Positions 7,622-32,311 of a DNA stretch of 32,311 nt are shown piece after piece. How positions within the stretch are numbered: the stretch's first letter is position 1; every line of letters begins with the position of its first letter. Below the pieces are notes generated by a model. It worked only from the letters and a program-made list of their open reading frames with translations, was not told the DNA's origin and did no database searches. A program made the position numbers and the translations under genes. Source of the stretch: a virus; the IMG/VR virus record IMGVR_UViG_3300047476_000586, positions 1 to 32,311 of that record, one strand, 5' to 3'.

Positions 7622-8029
7622 TTAGTTAGCTAACACACGAACATTGAACTCAGCTGCCAGATAGGTTACATCTGAAATCAGAACAGAGCCATAGTTCGTC
7701 ATTTCGGTCACTATGCAGTCAAAGGCCTTTCCGCCTAGTGTCCTATCTGATTCTACCGCAAGCCCAATGGCATAGTCTCCTGTGCTTGAACAGTAGGAAT
7801 CGAGATTTCTTTGAGCAGTTCTTTCATCTACCCTGCCAACAATAACCTGAACTGAAAAGTCATACTCAGTCATCCCACGCTTGAAGTCTTGGTGATACTG
7901 AACTCGATTGAGCTGAACTATCGCAATTGGCGGCGATGGGTTGTCTGGGATTGTGGCAGAAACCCTAAGACCGGGGATGGTCGCAAGGTTGTTAGCAATT
8001 CCTTGCCGAAGCTCGGAGATGTCTGCCAT
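7622..8029 (-). CDS. Tail terminator/completion protein
   Basis: 135 residues. The N-terminus (LRQGIANNLATIPGLRVSATIPDNPSPPIAI, with the predicted helix first) and the later strand QVIVGRVDERTAQRNLDSY match the mixed alpha/beta pattern of tail terminator or neck proteins encoded just before the tail tube in actinophages. The start shares one base with the connector gene's stop (TAATG), and 16 bases separate its stop from the tail tube start. It should cap the tail tube and join it to the head. The assignment rests on gene order and general resemblance. Confidence 0.72.
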   Translation of the reverse strand: MADISELRQGIANNLATIPGLRVSATIPDNPSPPIAIVQLNRVQYHQDFKRGMTEYDFSVQVIVGRVDERTAQRNLDSYCSSTGDYAIGLAVESDRTLGGKAFDCIVTEMTNYGSVLISDVTYLAAEFNVRVLAN

Positions 8030-8622
8030 TAGGCTGCCTGAATCTTTCGGTAAGGACTGATTAGGTGTTCGACATCAGGATCAAGGCGGAAGCCGATTCT
8101 CATTGAGCCAAGCTCGCCAGAGATGATTCCAAGTGGAGAGTCCAGACGCTTGAAGATTCTTGACGCAAGAATGACAGTTGCCTGAGTGATAGCGATAGGC
8201 ACAGCCGACCAGCCCCAAGTTCCAGTCAGGCGAACAGTTGCGTCACCGCCAGAGACAGGGAAGAAATAATCTTTGACAGCTCTGATTTGAGTGTAAGAAG
8301 TCACAAGTCCACCTGCTCGACCATTGAGCGGCTCAGCCTGCCAGTCATCGGCAGCCCACTCGGTGTCGTAGGTCTCGCCATCCTCTGAGGTCTCAACCTT
8401 AGTTAGAGTGATGAAATCCTCGGTAGCACAGACATAGTTGTCAAGCGGTGCGAAAATCTTTACAGCCGACCCGGCGTTGTAGAAGTAACGCTCGGTATAA
8501 GAGTCAATTTGGCGAGAGGCTGCTTCAATAGCCATCTCGATAGCAGCATCATCTAGTCCGTCTTGGATTCCAATTGCTGATTTGACCTGTTGCAGAGTTG
8601 CGTATCCATTAGAAATTGCCAT
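8029..8622 (-). CDS. Head-tail connector (gp6-like adaptor)
   Basis: 197 residues. An early helical part (ATLQQVKSAIGIQDGLDDAAIEMAIEAASRQIDSYTERYF, residues about 7-46) is characteristic of HK97 gp6/SPP1 gp15-like adaptor proteins, which form a ring beneath the portal. A middle beta region and a C-terminal helix (AITQATVILASRIFKRLDSP) complete the family pattern. It is the first gene after the glycosylation cassette and is overlapped by the tail terminator gene. A separate stopper protein is not obvious in this genome. Confidence 0.85.
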   Translation of the reverse strand: MAISNGYATLQQVKSAIGIQDGLDDAAIEMAIEAASRQIDSYTERYFYNAGSAVKIFAPLDNYVCATEDFITLTKVETSEDGETYDTEWAADDWQAEPLNGRAGGLVTSYTQIRAVKDYFFPVSGGDATVRLTGTWGWSAVPIAITQATVILASRIFKRLDSPLGIISGELGSMRIGFRLDPDVEHLISPYRKIQAA

Positions 8623-8636
8623 GAGTTCTCCTGCCT

Positions 8637-9062
8637 CTATTCTAGCCCTCGGACTCTAGCCTTTAGTTTTGTTGTGCTTATCCCCTGTGTATAGGGAATG
8701 TAGAGCAACGAGATTCCTCGCTCATCTAGCCAGTCTTGGTCGAAGCCCATTTGTGCGTAGTAGTCACGCCTAGCCCAGTCTGATCCAATAGCAATTATGT
8801 CTGGCAAAGCCGTCTCAATAGCCAGCTTGCTGTCTGACCCCCCTATGTTAGGTATAACCTCATCGACATAGCGACAGGCTAATAAAACTGCCTCTCGCTC
8901 GTGATAGCAGGCAATAGGAGCTTTCCCTTTGTAGCTCTCAATAAACTCGTCAGTATTTAGGCTGACAATCACTCGCCCAAGCTCTGAGCATTTCTTTAGA
9001 AAATTGACATGACCTGAATGGAACAGGTCAAAAGTTCCGCCTGTATAGATAGTTAGTCCCAT
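8637..9062 (-). CDS. TagD-like cytidylyltransferase
   Basis: 141 residues. It has the nucleotidyltransferase core GGTFDLFHSGH with the HxGH motif at residues 15-18, the segment CRYVDEVIP, GSDW, and a C-terminal GISTTKLKAR (the ISTT motif). These match glycerol-3-phosphate cytidylyltransferase (TagD) and related enzymes that make CDP-glycerol, CDP-ribitol or sugar nucleotides from a phosphorylated precursor and CTP. The true substrate cannot be told from sequence. It overlaps the preceding glycosyltransferase by 10 bases, so the cassette is translated together and this enzyme probably supplies an activated donor for one of the transferases or diverts a wall precursor. Confidence 0.88.
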   Translation of the reverse strand: MGLTIYTGGTFDLFHSGHVNFLKKCSELGRVIVSLNTDEFIESYKGKAPIACYHEREAVLLACRYVDEVIPNIGGSDSKLAIETALPDIIAIGSDWARRDYYAQMGFDQDWLDERGISLLYIPYTQGISTTKLKARVRGLE

Positions 9063-9700
9063 CGGTTCTCTCGCCGTCTGTCTAAGCTCCAGCCCCTAAC
9101 TCTAAAGTCGTTTGTGTCTTTCTTTTGCTGAAATAGTGCTTGATTGCGGTTAAAAGTAAAGTCGTTTCGGACTTCATTATTGTGATACTTAGTCGCTGAA
9201 TTGTGGTGATGGACTTTGGCAGGGATGTTGATTTTCTTTATACCTGCGTTGTCCGCTCGGCGCTCGTAGTCGTTGTCGCAGAAGTAAAGCGGATAATACG
9301 CCTCGTCAAATAGTCCTACTCTTTTGATTACTTCCTCGCCCAAAACAAAAGCTGACCAGACCGGAGCGCAGTCGGTAAAGGTTAGGGCATCGGGCTTTGC
9401 TGACCTGTCTATAACTTCTAACGCTCCCGGCTCAAAGCGGCAGTCATCATTGACCAACAGCCAGCGTGGTGCGTAAGGCGTTGATTTGATTACTAAGTTC
9501 CAAGCACCTTGCAAGCCAAGCCCATAGGGGACTTCAATGTGCCATAGCCGCTCGACTTTTTCAGGCTTAGTCGGTGTCCAGCTTTTCTTGCCTGAGTTGT
9601 TTACGATAACTAAGTTCTCGACAGGGTAGTCAATAGAGGCCAACAACTGCTCAGCTAGGTCGAACCTGCTAAGAGTTGGAAACCCTAAGACCTCAATCAA
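9053..9700 (-). CDS. GT-A (GT2-like) glycosyltransferase
   Basis: 215 residues. The N-terminus (GFPTLSRFDLAEQLLASID, then LVIVNNSG) and the acidic WLLVNDDCRFEPGAL motif are those of inverting GT-A enzymes, with NDD near residues 82-84 in the place of the metal-binding DXD. Later LGEEVIKRVGLFDEAYYPLY and FCDNDYERRA match the acceptor-side loop of rhamnosyl- and related transferases, and CDNDYERR gives the probable catalytic acid. The start is an unusual TTG at 9700 that overlaps the stop of the upstream GT4 gene (TTGA). The C-terminal tail is basic. The acceptor is unknown: a capsid or tail protein, or a host wall polymer. Confidence 0.87.
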   Translation of the reverse strand: MIEVLGFPTLSRFDLAEQLLASIDYPVENLVIVNNSGKKSWTPTKPEKVERLWHIEVPYGLGLQGAWNLVIKSTPYAPRWLLVNDDCRFEPGALEVIDRSAKPDALTFTDCAPVWSAFVLGEEVIKRVGLFDEAYYPLYFCDNDYERRADNAGIKKINIPAKVHHHNSATKYHNNEVRNDFTFNRNQALFQQKKDTNDFRVRGWSLDRRRENRWD

Positions 9701-10899
9701 ACTAAGCCCTTTAGGAATGGCAACCAGTAGTGATTCCAGACTTTCTGAGAATCATAATCCTGAGCAAACTTGCGTGACTTCTCTGAGTAAGAACCCTCGG
9801 CTTTCCAAACCTCGTAAGCGTTCTCTAGCTGAGTTGCGATTGAGGCGATGCTTGGAGTTTTCCACCACGCTGCCTGAGCCTCATCCCAGAACAACTGTCC
9901 GGTGACCTTGAAGCCATCCTCTGCCACTAGGTCTCTAGGGCCAGTCCAGTCAGTAGCGATCACACGAGTTCCGCAGGCTTGCGCCTCGATAATCGGAATC
10001 TCAAAGCCACCACCGAGCGAGAGTTGCAGAGCAACATCGGCAGTCGAGTAGAAGCCAGCTAGGTCTTTCGGATCAAGTCCCAGTCTGTAATCGATAGCGT
10101 CAGGGAAGATAACAGCATCCATTGGAATCCCACAGGCTTGAACGAGTCTTGGCAGGTTGAATCCACCATAGATTCCTTTTGGCTCTGTGTGAATGTAGAG
10201 ATAGGCGTTGGGAACTTTCTGGCGGAATACTGCAAAAGCCATTAGGCCCTCAGCGAAAGCCTTGCGGTGGATTGACTTATTTGCCTTGTTAGCAGAGTTC
10301 ATCATCACTAGGAAATCTGTGTCTTTCAGTCCTAAGAATTCTCTAGCGTCTTGCTTGCCAATTTTGTCGGTTGGCTTGAAAGTCGAAACTGTGTCAATCG
10401 AGTGAGGGATGTAGTGACCTTGAATGTCGTTCTCTGCTAATTGCTCAACTCCAAATGGAGCCATTGCAATGGGTGTGACATTCTCTTTGACGAGCCATTG
10501 CTTGACAGCAGGTGGCATAGAGATGTGGTCGAGTGGAACCCAACTGAGGATTCTTGGGAATTCTTCGGTAGGCCACGCTTCAGGCTTTAGAGTCCAAACA
10601 TCCCCAAGCGTCAGGATGTAATCTTTGTAATCTTTTTTAGCTGCCTGCATCTTGTGAGCGATTGCGAGAGCGTCTTGGCTCATTGGCTCGTAACCTCTGG
10701 CGTAGTGAGGGATTTCTCCAAAGGCAGTCTTGTAAGTGGAGTTGCTTCCCTCTAGTCCCCAGTTGGATTGGTGAGCGGCATTGACTCCATGCTTTACTAA
10801 ATAATCAAGCAGAATCCCAACCTGCATCCCATAGCCTGTCGGCTGATAAGGGGAGTTCGACCAAGTGGTTATGGTCAGGTCTAATTTCTCTGGCTTCAT
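9697..10899 (-). CDS. GT-B (GT4-like) glycosyltransferase
   Basis: 400 residues. The N-terminal half shows the Gly-rich start of a GT-B fold (SNSPYQPTGYGMQVGILLDY, residues 15-34), and the C-terminal nucleotide-sugar domain has SLGGGFEIPIIEAQACG (294-310) followed by TRVIATDWTGPRDLV. In the usual E-x7-E motif the first Glu is replaced by Gly297, while Glu305 is kept. The gene has its own AGAAAGGA ribosome site, follows a terminator behind the capsid gene, and is coupled to the GT2-like gene. It probably transfers a hexose from a nucleotide sugar. It lacks membrane segments, so it is cytoplasmic. Confidence 0.9.
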   Translation of the reverse strand: MKPEKLDLTITTWSNSPYQPTGYGMQVGILLDYLVKHGVNAAHQSNWGLEGSNSTYKTAFGEIPHYARGYEPMSQDALAIAHKMQAAKKDYKDYILTLGDVWTLKPEAWPTEEFPRILSWVPLDHISMPPAVKQWLVKENVTPIAMAPFGVEQLAENDIQGHYIPHSIDTVSTFKPTDKIGKQDAREFLGLKDTDFLVMMNSANKANKSIHRKAFAEGLMAFAVFRQKVPNAYLYIHTEPKGIYGGFNLPRLVQACGIPMDAVIFPDAIDYRLGLDPKDLAGFYSTADVALQLSLGGGFEIPIIEAQACGTRVIATDWTGPRDLVAEDGFKVTGQLFWDEAQAAWWKTPSIASIATQLENAYEVWKAEGSYSEKSRKFAQDYDSQKVWNHYWLPFLKGLV

Positions 10900-10925
10900 G
10901 ATTTCCTTTCTAGCTCCACCATAGC

Positions 10926-10954
10926 AAAAACCCCCACCAAATTGGTGAGGGTTT
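10926..10954 (-). terminator. Rho-independent terminator downstream of the capsid gene
   Basis: On the minus strand a stem AACCCTCACC/GGTGGGGGTT with one mismatch and an AATTT-like loop is followed by a run of T residues. It lies 22 bases after the capsid stop codon and ahead of the glycosylation cassette, so it should separate very high capsid expression from the transferases. Confidence 0.9.
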
Positions 10955-10975: not shown

Positions 10976-12151
10976 CTAAGCAGCCGATCCCTTGAAAATC
11001 TTGAAGTGGTCTTGGTGTGACAGGTTTCCATCAACACGAATCAAGAAGCGGAATACTGCAAGGTCGTTAGCGAACTTGTAGTCATCGCTTCTGTCTACTC
11101 GTAGACCGCCTGCGACACGAACCTTGTAGCTTGGCAGGTATCCGAAACCAACTGAAGCAGCAGCAGAACCTACTGCTGGAGCTGCTGGGTTCTCGTGAAC
11201 TGTGTATCCAAGAAGGGTGTCAGAGGTAGCGCCGTTTAGACCTGGCTCGAATAGGTAGTAACCATCGGTGGTCTTTAGCTTACGAGCGTTGCGGATTGCG
11301 GTTGGGGACATTAGCCAGCCGGTTCCGTTCAGTCTGCGAACTGCGCCGTCTACTGAGTAGACAAGGTCAATTAGCTGGTCTGCGGTGAATAGACCGCCAG
11401 CGATGGTTCCAGAAACTCCGGTTCCTGCTGCGGTGAAGATACCAGTTGGAGCGTTAGCGCCACCTGCACCATTGGTTAGAGCCTCGTTCACAGCGTAACC
11501 GATTGAGTTACCTGCTGCACGAGCTAGAACCTCAGCGACATCCACTCCACCATCTTCGATCAGTTCACGAGCTACTGGCACCAAGAAGGCATACTTTTTT
11601 GCGCCGAGTGTGATGCTTGAAAAAGTTGGTTCGGACTCGTTGATCTCTGCACCTGGGGCTTCGTAACCAGCGGTTCCGTAAGCGGTAAGGGTTGGAATCT
11701 TTAGGTCTTCACCAGACTGGGTGTTGAATACCTCAGAAACATCTAGCATTGGGCCAACCTGACGAGCAAGGTCATAGACACGAGCTACGAAGGACTGTGG
11801 CACAACTCCACCAGAGTTGCTTGGGGTTAGGGTTCCACGAGTCTCAAAGTTGTGAGAACGAATCTCACCCTTTGCTAGGGAACGGACATAGTCGTAGTCA
11901 GACTTTGCAGTCTCAGCTACAACAAAGTCAGAAGCAGCAGCGATAGCCTTAGCCTCACGCTCTTCTGCCTTGCGGATTGTTTCGATTGCTTCAGCTCGCT
12001 TGTCTAGGTCTGCGTTGATGCGGTCGAACTTCTCGTTCTCCTCAGCAGTTAGATCACGCTTTTCAGCAGCAGCGGTGTCAAGAAGGGCCTTTGCTTCTTC
12101 CCACGCCTTTGCACGAGCCTCTGCCTGTGCCTTGATAAAGGACTGTGACAT
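10976..12151 (-). CDS. Major capsid protein (HK97 fold)
   Basis: 391 residues. An N-terminal charged coiled coil (about residues 1-75, Ala/Glu/Lys-rich, with DLTAEENEKFDRINADLDKR) is the delta-type scaffolding region. It is followed near residues 105-125 by RGTLTPSNSGG and VVPQSFVARVYDLARQ, where the mature HK97-fold domain starts; cleavage by the upstream protease probably occurs near the RSHNFETRG segment. Later TGIFTAAGTG, GTGWLMSPTAIRNARKLKT and LLGYTVHENP are family hallmarks. It has a clear AGGAGAAA site before ATG 12151, its own leader and terminator on either side, and thus independent control. Confidence 0.95.
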   Translation of the reverse strand: MSQSFIKAQAEARAKAWEEAKALLDTAAAEKRDLTAEENEKFDRINADLDKRAEAIETIRKAEEREAKAIAAASDFVVAETAKSDYDYVRSLAKGEIRSHNFETRGTLTPSNSGGVVPQSFVARVYDLARQVGPMLDVSEVFNTQSGEDLKIPTLTAYGTAGYEAPGAEINESEPTFSSITLGAKKYAFLVPVARELIEDGGVDVAEVLARAAGNSIGYAVNEALTNGAGGANAPTGIFTAAGTGVSGTIAGGLFTADQLIDLVYSVDGAVRRLNGTGWLMSPTAIRNARKLKTTDGYYLFEPGLNGATSDTLLGYTVHENPAAPAVGSAAASVGFGYLPSYKVRVAGGLRVDRSDDYKFANDLAVFRFLIRVDGNLSHQDHFKIFKGSAA

Positions 12152-12547: not shown

Positions 12548-14010
12548 TAGTTCCTCTTTAGCAATAGGTCGAGCTGCTTGCGCTTTAGCTCTAACAAATT
12601 GACTTCTTCTTCGGTTGGCTCTTGTGTTACCTGCGTTGGAGTCAGGGAATTGACAACAGTCTTGATTAGCTCTGCTTGCTCGTCAGTTAGGTCAGCACCT
12701 TCTTCTAGCTTGAATACGGCATCAGCCAACTGGTCAGGGTCTACTGAAGCTCGCTTAGCTGCCTTATCCAGCGAGCGAACATTCGCCTCGGTTGCGGCGT
12801 AGGCAGGGAAAGCAACGATTGAAACCTCAAACAGACGAACGGACTTTAGAGTGCGCTCGGTCATCTCGTTGTTCCAAGCATCTTTCTGGACTGCAAAGCC
12901 AAATGACATTTTGTTTAGGTCTCCACGCTTTAGAAGCTCTGCCATGTCTCTGCCGTCAGAAGTGTTTGGCAGGGATGCTTCTACCCTGAGTCCAACTTCA
13001 TCCTCATAGAGCTTCATGGTTCCAGAGCGAGATGATGCCAAGACTCTGCCTGTGTCGTGATTGACCAATAGCTTGACATCGTTGCGTGAGCGTAGAGAAC
13101 GGCGGAAAGCACCGGGTTCGATTGTCTCAACAAATCCACCCAAGTCCTCGGATGGTGAGTTGAACTTAGCAGCATAACCAACAAAGGTCATGCCATCGCC
13201 TTCTTCTCTTAGCTCAAACTGAGCGTCAAAGTTTCTGGTTTCGTGTTTCATCTTTCCTCGTTCTTGTTCTGCTTCTAGTCTAGCGACTACGCCTTCTGCA
13301 TAAGTTCTTGCTCGCTCTGCTGATCTGCGAGTTGTTCCGCCACCCCATAGAGCCATCGCAACGACTCCGGGTGATGGGTAGTTTTCTGATTCTGGGTTTG
13401 CGTCAGGTGAATCTAAATCAACTAAGTGCCTTGCAATCCAAGCCTGAATTCTTACCCACTTGTCGGTAGATACTCGACCCTCTGCCATCTCACGAGCTTC
13501 TCGAATTGTGCGGTCTACAAGTCCGTCTCCACCGAGTCCTTCGGAATACCATTCCAAACCTCTGCGAGCTGATGCTCTCATGTAGGCAGGTGGGGTTAGG
13601 TCTACTTGCCTAAGCTCATCGTCAATCTCATCCTCGTAGGTTGGCAGGTCGGTTATCTTTTCTACCCTGCCTGCATCTACTAGAACGATGACCTCGGTTT
13701 CCATCCAAACGCCATCTTCTTCATCGTAAAGTTTGACCTCTAGCTGAGTGCCTCGGATTGCGTAGATTTCGCCAACTAAAACATCATCGCTCTCGATCCA
13801 GCGAACATAGTCACCGATTGCTAGGTCAGCGACATCAGCTCTCTTGCCACGCTCTCCACCCGGCTCCATGCCCTCGGCGATTGAGACAGCTACCATCTGG
13901 TCAATGGCTGACTGCTTAGTCGTGTGGCAGCCGATTGACTCGCCATCTTCTTTCTCAACAGCCCAACCATTAGGGCAATCTGGATTAGTTTTTGAAATGT
14001 AGTAGGGCAT
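12547..14010 (-). CDS. Prohead protease fused to N-terminal accessory domains
   Basis: 487 residues. The C-terminal part (about 262-410) is a U35/HK97-type prohead protease: FVGYAAKFNSPSEDLGGFVE, the catalytic His318 in LLVNHDTGR, and Ser369 in NKMSFGF, then LFEVSIVAFPAYAATE. In front lie a small Cys-containing segment (residues 1-50), a beta-rich SH3/KOW-like domain (about 62-120, AIGDYVRWIESDDVLVGEIY), and a helical domain (about 140-245). The C-terminus (440-487) is charged and scaffold-like. Typical proteases of this group are near 200 residues, so the accessory half is large. An internal ATG at 13251 with GAGGAAAG just upstream could give the protease alone. Confidence 0.9.
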   Translation of the reverse strand: MPYYISKTNPDCPNGWAVEKEDGESIGCHTTKQSAIDQMVAVSIAEGMEPGGERGKRADVADLAIGDYVRWIESDDVLVGEIYAIRGTQLEVKLYDEEDGVWMETEVIVLVDAGRVEKITDLPTYEDEIDDELRQVDLTPPAYMRASARRGLEWYSEGLGGDGLVDRTIREAREMAEGRVSTDKWVRIQAWIARHLVDLDSPDANPESENYPSPGVVAMALWGGGTTRRSAERARTYAEGVVARLEAEQERGKMKHETRNFDAQFELREEGDGMTFVGYAAKFNSPSEDLGGFVETIEPGAFRRSLRSRNDVKLLVNHDTGRVLASSRSGTMKLYEDEVGLRVEASLPNTSDGRDMAELLKRGDLNKMSFGFAVQKDAWNNEMTERTLKSVRLFEVSIVAFPAYAATEANVRSLDKAAKRASVDPDQLADAVFKLEEGADLTDEQAELIKTVVNSLTPTQVTQEPTEEEVNLLELKRKQLDLLLKRN

Positions 14011-15455
14011 TATCCCAACCTCGCTGATACAACAATCGTTCCGCCTAGTGCGACTGCTGTTCCGTTTATCGTTATACCTGCGGCGGTGGTATTTATAGCA
14101 ACTGTTTGAGTCGGTGCGTCATAGGTCAGGGGAGCGGTTGCGTTGATTACTCCGCTTGGGCCTTGTGGGCCTTGTGGCCCTGTCGCTCCTGTTAGCCCCT
14201 GAATACCTTGCGGCCCCTGTGGCCCAGTATCGCCTTGCGGCCCTTGTGGCCCGGTAGCTCCTGTAAGACCTTGAATACCCTGCGGCCCCTGATCACCAGT
14301 ATCTCCCTTTAGACCTTGTGGCCCTTGAGGGCCAGTCTCTCCCTGAATTCCTTGTGGGCCTTGTGGGCCAGTCGGCCCAGTAGCACCAGTCGCACCAGTA
14401 AGTCCAGTATCCCCTTTGTCACCCTTGTCACCCTTCTCACCTTGAATACCTTGAATTCCTTGCGGCCCAGTCGCTCCGGTTGCACCAGTTAGACCTGTGT
14501 CACCCTTATCGCCTTTGTCACCTTTGAGACCTTGAACGCCCTGTGGCCCTTGTGCGCCTGTGGCTCCGGTGTCACCTTTGTCACCTTTTGGCAAAACAAA
14601 GTTCAAAGTCTGAGATGGTGCTGTTCCTGTAACCGAGACGGCAGCAACTGTTCCGCTCGTGACCGTTCCAACCGATAGAACTGTCGGCTGACCTAAAACT
14701 GTTTCATTGACCCAAAGCCCAGTCGTAGAGTCATAGACCAAAGATTGTCCGTCAGTCGGGGTAGTGAGTCTGACATTGTGCAGTTCATCTAGCTCGTAGC
14801 CGTTTTGGATGTTTACATAAAGAACGCCATTGTTTTGGTTTGCTCTGATGCAATAACCAATAAAGACAGCATTGTTTGGAGCAGCAGGTCGAGTTGAAGT
14901 CAGGCCGCCGGGAACTGTTGGGGATAGCCAGACAGCAGCCCCTTCGGTTAGTCCGTTGGTGTTTATGTTTCTAACAAGTCCAAAACTTGCCGCAAAGCCT
15001 TTACTACCCCCACTAATTGTTTCGGCCATAACTGCGATGGTCTTTGAGCTTGATGCCTCGCTACTAGCTGAGGCATAAGAGACAAGCTTGTTGTTTCCAT
15101 CTGACCCTGAGACATAGACAGCCTTGCCCTTAGTGCGCTCTGATCCGTCAGAAGATTTGCAGAGGATAAAAAGCTCTTGCCCGACATTCTGTCTAACAGT
15201 CGGAGTCATGCCCAACTCTAAAGTCTTGTCTGCGTCATTCCAGCCAATTCTTCCGACCTGAATTGAGGGAACGGAATTGACATTGAACTGAATGTAGGCA
15301 GGCTCGGCGATTGCAGTTGCGCCGATGATGTTGTCAATTAGGGTTGCTTGATTCTCGTTTATCGTGGCTGAGAATGTGCCGCTTGTAGTAATAGTGGCGG
15401 TGTTAGGTGCTGTGACCTGAACAACCGCCGTTCCAGTATTTACGACAATGCTCAA
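14010..15455 (-). CDS. Collagen-like fibre protein in the head module
   Basis: 481 residues. Residues 1-290 form a beta-rich N-terminal region ([33 protein letters not shown]) of a kind seen in phage fibres. Residues 291-434 are 48 uninterrupted Gly-X-Y triplets ([15 protein letters not shown]), a collagen-like triple-helix shaft. A 47-residue beta-like cap ([17 protein letters not shown]) could trimerise it. It starts with an overlap of the BppU-like gene upstream (4 bases) and overlaps the protease gene by one base. Its place between portal and protease suggests a head-associated fibre, though attachment to the tail cannot be excluded. Confidence 0.9.
14154..14585 (-). repeat. Nine-base-periodic collagen-coding repeat (48 Gly-X-Y triplets)
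   Basis: The segment encodes 48 consecutive Gly-X-Y triplets. Larger blocks recur, notably the phrases [19 protein letters not shown] and [19 protein letters not shown]. Such repeats expand and contract by recombination, so fibre length probably varies between related phages. Confidence 0.9.
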
Positions 15456-31900: not shown

Positions 31901-32311
31901 TCTGTAATCCTTAGTTTTTCTGGGGCATACATCTGCAACAATTCTACCGCCCAATTCACCTTATCCTCAACACGCTGGCCGGGCGGCTGATTCCTAGTCC
32001 AAAGCTCTAGGTTCTCAATGCGGTTATCGTTTCTAATTCCGTTTTTGTGATGGACATTTTCAGTTGGGAGCAACCGCCTGCCTAAGTGTTCTTCCATGAC
32101 TATTCGATGCTCTGGCCTTTGACCCCTATAAACATAGCCGTTGTAATCTCTGGTCGGCTTTTTATGAGTAATGCTCGGGTCTCCGTATCTCAATAAACGG
32201 CGATAATGAGCATTGCAGTAGCCCTTAGCACAATGCTTACGCTGACAGCCCTCAACAACGCAACCCTCATGAGCATAAAAATGACCAATGGGGCTGGCCT
32301 CTGGGTCTCCA
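31897..32311 (-). CDS. HNH endonuclease, C-terminal part (continues from 1-342)
   Basis: The 3' part of the 209-residue nuclease that begins at 342. In the window the frame is open past 32311; the overlap with bases 1-127 shows that the upstream sequence is the one at 1-342. The catalytic core lies here: [20 protein letters not shown], then [20 protein letters not shown], with the double His and Asn residues of the HNH motif and the NRIENLELW phrase of many phage HNH enzymes. The stop TGA overlaps the ATG of the next gene. Confidence 0.93.
32185..32311. repeat. Terminal direct repeat, right copy (circular overlap)
   Basis: Exact copy of bases 1-127 at the end of the record. When joined, the two copies give one 32,184-base circle with an uninterrupted HNH gene through the junction. 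Confidence 0.97.

Follow-up and report, generated by a model that had tools for sequence, protein, structure and literature searches.

A probable exchangeable virion-glycan cassette between the capsid and connector genes of an aquatic phage

Glycosyltransferases encoded by environmental phages are usually attributed to protection of DNA or to change of the host surface. Modification of the viral particle itself has been reported for mycobacteriophages Che8, Corndog and Myrna, where phage transferases modify the capsid and the tail tube (Freeman et al. 2023, as cited in PMC12363180), and for chloroviruses, where glycan genes (A064R, A546L and, putatively, B736L), not the capsid sequence, set the capsid glycans and the antigenic class (PMC9614988). 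In the open-access papers searched, we found no description of a fixed capsid–connector slot holding a constant transferase and exchangeable modules, although phage-encoded virion glycosylation as such is already known. Here we describe such a slot, starting from a virus record of 32,311 bases (the window, i.e. the whole stretch of DNA analyzed). Unlike virion glycosylation in the mycobacteriophages, which according to that citing account has been demonstrated, the cassette in the window is known from its gene content, and it differs in having a fixed slot with swappable partners.

In the Pontimonas phage phiPsal1 (MG835450), the order is the same as in the window, with the capsid gene followed by a GT4 (45% identity), a GT2 (38%) and a neck protein; phiPsal1 differs by an opposite-strand methyltransferase gene between GT4 and GT2, and by having no nucleotidyltransferase. 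In the Microcystis phage Mae-JY09, of another lineage, the interval between capsid and head-tail adaptor holds a GT4, a 210-residue gene product and an epimerase, and the Synechococcus phage S-CBS4 carries a GT4, a GT2 and a methyltransferase between portal and capsid.

The two ends of the window carry an identical 127-base direct repeat (positions 1–127 and 32185–32311), so that we probably have a complete genome here, assembled as a circle. The minus-strand genes are arranged in the order terminase, portal, collagen-like protein, protease, capsid, GT4, GT2, nucleotidyltransferase, connector, tail terminator, tail tube and further tail genes. The major capsid protein (10976–12151, minus strand) belongs to the HK97 family (PF05065, 1.5e-52), and the head-tail connector (8029–8622, minus strand; PF05135, PHROG 442) forms the downstream border of the slot. 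As described in the initial annotation, three overlapping open reading frames lie between the capsid terminator and the connector, all on the minus strand: a GT4-like retaining glycosyltransferase of 400 residues (9697–10899), which is the constant first gene of the slot, a GT2-like glycosyltransferase of 215 residues with a TTG start (9053–9700), and a nucleotidyltransferase of 141 residues (8637–9062). The GT2 start overlaps the GT4 stop by 4 nt (TTGA), and the nucleotidyltransferase gene overlaps that of GT2 by 10 nt. The collagen-like protein between portal and protease (481 residues; 14010–15455, minus strand) is encoded in some related loci but not in all, and is a candidate variable surface protein.

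GT4 exceeds the cut-offs of two Pfam group 1 transferase models, PF13692 (38.5 bits) and PF00534 (33.8 bits), and its AF2 model (pLDDT 91) has a GT-B fold. The best PDB match of the model is 3oy2 (E 2.4e-16), the chlorovirus enzyme B736L, which comes from a eukaryotic virus and has a putative role on the capsid; further structural matches include MshA, PimB' and BshA. The E-x7-E motif reads SLGGGFEIPIIE in the window and SYGEGFGIPTVE in phiPsal1: as previously noted, Glu is missing from the first position, where the window has Gly, and a Glu is found three residues further on. Because of the missing Glu, we use the name GT4-like. Among 116 GT4 relatives, the GGFE form seen in the window occurs in 41 and the EGFG form, shared by phiPsal1, in 75, with no mixed form, and a single event on the GT4 tree suffices for the change from EGFG to GGFE. 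The lack of a mixed form and the single tree event indicate that GGFE arose by a coupled substitution that became fixed in one clade rather than by decay of the motif; the shifted Glu may take over the role of the lost one. A link between the missing Glu and the kind of cargo that follows GT4 was considered and ruled out, since on the GT4 tree a single motif change stands against many changes of cargo.

The second transferase matches no Pfam model, including no GT2 model, for which reason we call it GT2-like; it does match PHROG 29879 (‘galactosyl transferase’, 3.7e-35). Its AF2 model (pLDDT 90) has a GT-A fold, with PDB matches to AvpGT, the fucosyltransferase WrtF and 6p61, and an acidic metal-binding motif is present. 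The protein carries an NDD motif and the stretch DNDYERR, and its conserved residues include the second of the two Asp in NDD, D142, D144, R147 and R148 of the DxDxxRR block, and His165. Structure prediction, proposed earlier as a check on both transferases, thus gives confident GT-B and GT-A models; single-sequence phmmer searches of GT4 and GT2 against the PDB gave no match.

The nucleotidyltransferase belongs to the cytidylyltransferase-like superfamily, as judged by an HxGH motif (HSGH) and a PF01467 match above cut-off (5e-14). It shares HxGH, GISTT and full-length profile matches with TagD (1coz, 6e-28) and the Fom1 CyTase (5x3d, 1e-22), and its profile also matches ethanolamine-phosphate cytidylyltransferase (3elb, 6e-32 over two repeats). 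The TagD signature RTEGISTT is absent: the window has YTQGISTT and the IMG/VR relatives have YTxG[IV]S[ST]T, with Tyr in place of the TagD Arg, as in Fom1. TagD proper was rejected on this signature and on the TIGR01518 equivalog score, which at 84 bits falls below the curated cut-off of 165.4, so that of the earlier description as a TagD-like cytidylyltransferase the superfamily assignment stands and the identification with TagD falls. HldE adenylyltransferase was likewise rejected (TIGR02199, 69.6 bits against a cut-off of 181.5), despite the HldE label borne by PHROG 7878, which the protein matches. From these motifs and profiles, we infer that the enzyme would use CTP rather than ATP. Bacterial neighbors were considered as a guide to the substrate and gave no clue; only five loci were available, and in the two opened the nucleotidyltransferase gene follows transferase-like genes. 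In one of these two, a contig labelled as a SAR202 MAG (L093:1-12414), transferase-like genes precede a 62% identical nucleotidyltransferase, which adjoins DNA polymerase III alpha-like and DnaQ-like genes; this may be a phage contig binned with a bacterium.

Upstream of GT4, an intrinsic terminator follows the 3' end of the capsid gene (10926–10954, minus strand), seen as a hairpin and U-run with a z value of -3.5. Relatives also fold far more stably at this spot, with a mean of -28 kcal/mol per 60 nt versus -12 in random contig stretches, in agreement with the terminator proposed earlier; a simple consensus scan does not list it. Directly behind the terminator and 18 nt ahead of the GT4 start lies an extended -10 promoter-like element, TGCTATGGT (10918–10926, minus strand). 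In 74 of 119 loci, the 90 nt behind the capsid stop contain a T-run and then TGNTANNNT, a combination seen in 0.8% of 90-mers drawn at random from these contigs. This pattern suggests that the cassette may head its own transcription unit, and synthesis of the enzymes would then be uncoupled from that of the capsid protein, with its very high abundance.

To analyze the corresponding slot in relatives, we scanned twice with profiles of the capsid and the connector, a search independent of the cassette, and added the earlier loci, giving 119 distinct slots. The frequencies of slot contents are rough, because the earlier loci were picked for their similarity to GT4 or GT2, the best-scoring loci were taken first, near-copies stayed in the set and clustering was automatic; with this reservation, a GT4 homologue is present in 116 of the 119 slots, nearly always as the first gene, and three slots are empty (91–99 bases; L158, L221 and L227). 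The initial statement that siphoviruses normally have no such genes at this place fails for the related lineage. The module behind GT4 is variable and usually comprises one to three genes. By the same rough count, GT4 is followed by GT2 and the nucleotidyltransferase in 51 slots, some with extra genes, so that the three-gene order of the window recurs in related phage genomes; by GT2 and an RmlD-like reductase in 20; by GT2 and/or other genes with an NAD-dependent epimerase in 15; by no further detected cargo gene in five; and by other mixtures in 25, including methyltransferases, a GT17-family enzyme, and an oxidoreductase with a hexapeptide acyltransferase. One slot (L020) adds a nucleotide-sugar dehydrogenase-like gene. 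The cargo families (RmlD_sub_bind, Epimerase, UDPG_MGDP_dh, GT17, GT2 and hexapeptide acyltransferase) are glycan enzymes, and in its common forms the module joins a second transferase to an enzyme that makes a donor or tailors the glycan.

Compound cassettes are seen in L110 and L081, where GT4 is followed by GT2, an RmlD-like reductase and a second GT2, with a nucleotidyltransferase in addition in L110, as if modules were stacked as well as swapped. At the slot border in L016, L019 and L215, an opposite-strand HNH-endonuclease-like gene, possibly a homing element, lies between capsid and GT4.

What the initial annotation missed is that the cassette is exchangeable, with GT4 as its constant part. 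Contigs from three metagenomes (L041, L042 and L166, the last being the same contig as L040) match the window by BLASTN at 92–96% DNA identity on both flanks. The match breaks at position 9695 and resumes at 8644, i.e. at the GT4/GT2 junction and the nucleotidyltransferase/connector junction, with unrelated DNA between; in place of the segment 8644–9695 of the window, which holds GT2 and the nucleotidyltransferase, these contigs carry another GT2 (37% identity), together with an epimerase gene that replaces the nucleotidyltransferase. In the swap pairs compared, the GT4 and connector proteins are 98–99% identical. Other close pairs with differing cargo are L215/L220, L002/L044, L207/L208, L222/L223, L005/L050 and L234/L239. 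Over the GT4 tree, the cargo classes require 24 changes (least possible 4, shuffled mean 50), and the nucleotidyltransferase class alone requires at least 16, as counted by starred branches. The module has thus been swapped many times while its flanks stayed put. Partner labels require three changes on the GT2 tree versus 15 on the GT4 tree for the same rows, from which it follows that GT2 and its partner move as a unit and GT4 stays; this supports a joint function of GT2 and partner and falls short of proof, since linkage between two conserved borders could alone cause them to travel together.

The pairing of a transferase with a nucleotidyltransferase had been regarded as unusual, which no longer holds: relatives of the nucleotidyltransferase are found in 63 Streptomyces phage records, and in the two genomes opened (Jay2Jay and Karp, Stanwilliamsviridae) two overlapping putative transferase genes lie directly upstream of a 54–57% identical nucleotidyltransferase. 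In contrast to the window, these cassettes lie away from the capsid and tail genes, and since they are outside the structural region, we regard the pairing as common and its location as not fixed. A related phage with the same cassette in a non-structural region had been named as grounds for doubting virion decoration; this is found for the nucleotidyltransferase and not for the transferases, as the Streptomyces transferases were rejected as GT2 homologues (profile comparison probability below 1%).

Based on the slot and its contents, we propose that the locus is probably an exchangeable virion-glycan cassette, by which the phage would glycosylate a virion protein, probably the capsid, with a swappable distal glycan. 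Late in infection, GT4 would move a first sugar from a host nucleotide-sugar onto a virion protein, most likely the capsid protein encoded by the adjacent gene, and GT2 would extend this sugar with a distal unit. The nucleotidyltransferase would make the distal donor by joining CMP, or less likely AMP, to a host phosphate or phosphonate metabolite, and relatives with an epimerase or reductase would attach another distal sugar to that first one. The capsid protein is a probable acceptor, for which gene adjacency is circumstantial evidence. Virion decoration, proposed at the outset, is accordingly retained as the leading reading, in the form of a glycan cassette that stays with the structural genes, and the teichoic-acid-like unit suggested with it is dropped: the CDP-glycerol glycerophosphotransferase family PF04464 is absent from the genome by profile search, and the host of phiPsal1 reportedly uses polyrhamnose in place of teichoic acid (PMC6106888). 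More speculatively, and on balance doubtfully, the nucleotidyltransferase could make a CDP-linked non-sugar unit (polyol phosphate or phosphonate) for placement on the virion glycan, and the locus would act in this aquatic lineage as an O-antigen-like serotype locus in which transferase-plus-donor modules switch the chemistry of the particle surface. The layout does resemble an O-antigen-style locus on a small scale, with a constant first transferase and an exchangeable distal module. No enzyme dedicated to transfer of a CDP-linked alcohol phosphate was found in the genome, and a GT-A enzyme taking such a donor would be unusual, which counts against the proposal, as do the departure of GT4 from the usual E-x7-E in its clade and the non-structural location of the nucleotidyltransferase gene in Streptomyces phages.

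A different target is conceivable but rather unlikely: the enzymes might alter host wall glycans, either blocking superinfection or keeping released virions off debris. Modification of the O-chain has been proposed for pelagimyophage transferases (PMC7029224), superinfection exclusion is one option suggested for freshwater actinophages (PMC10202952), frequent swapping would fit as well, and the nucleotidyltransferase cassettes of Streptomyces phages do exist outside structural regions. Against this, the site beside the late capsid genes is constant, and similar cassettes lie among the structural genes of actinobacterial and cyanobacterial phages. Gtr-type serotype conversion, with its membrane-anchored transferase and lysogeny, also finds no counterpart here: none of the three proteins has a transmembrane segment (maximal 19-residue hydropathy of GT2, 1.01), and the integrase and resolvase families PF00589 and PF00239 are absent from the genome. 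It is less likely still that a fibre or tail protein, e.g. the collagen-like protein, is glycosylated in place of the capsid; glycans could plausibly be attached to surface proteins of this kind, and the gene shares a structural block with the cassette, but it was undetected in many cassette-bearing related loci, including phiPsal1. Glycosylation of DNA as a defence against host nucleases, suggested for the transferases of freshwater actinophages E7 and F5 (PMC10202952), is highly improbable, because the genome lacks the thymidylate-synthase-like base modifier PF00303 (control genomes gave matches), and with it the base hydroxymethylase of a T-even-type system, and because epimerases, methyltransferases and nucleotidyltransferases swapping beside a capsid gene misfit a single DNA-base chemistry. 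A Tet/JBP search of the genome gave no match, and its control was silent too. Virion glycosylation fits best, given the location among structural genes in several lineages and the lack of membrane segments, integrase or resolvase, PF00303 and CDP-glycerol polymerase.

A fixed slot beside the capsid gene, in which more than 100 contigs retain the base enzyme and exchange the distal modules, points to the particle as the target of these enzymes. The pattern further points to selection for changing the particle surface in a setting where antibodies do not exist, and the near-identical natural phage pairs that differ in the module would make this idea testable.
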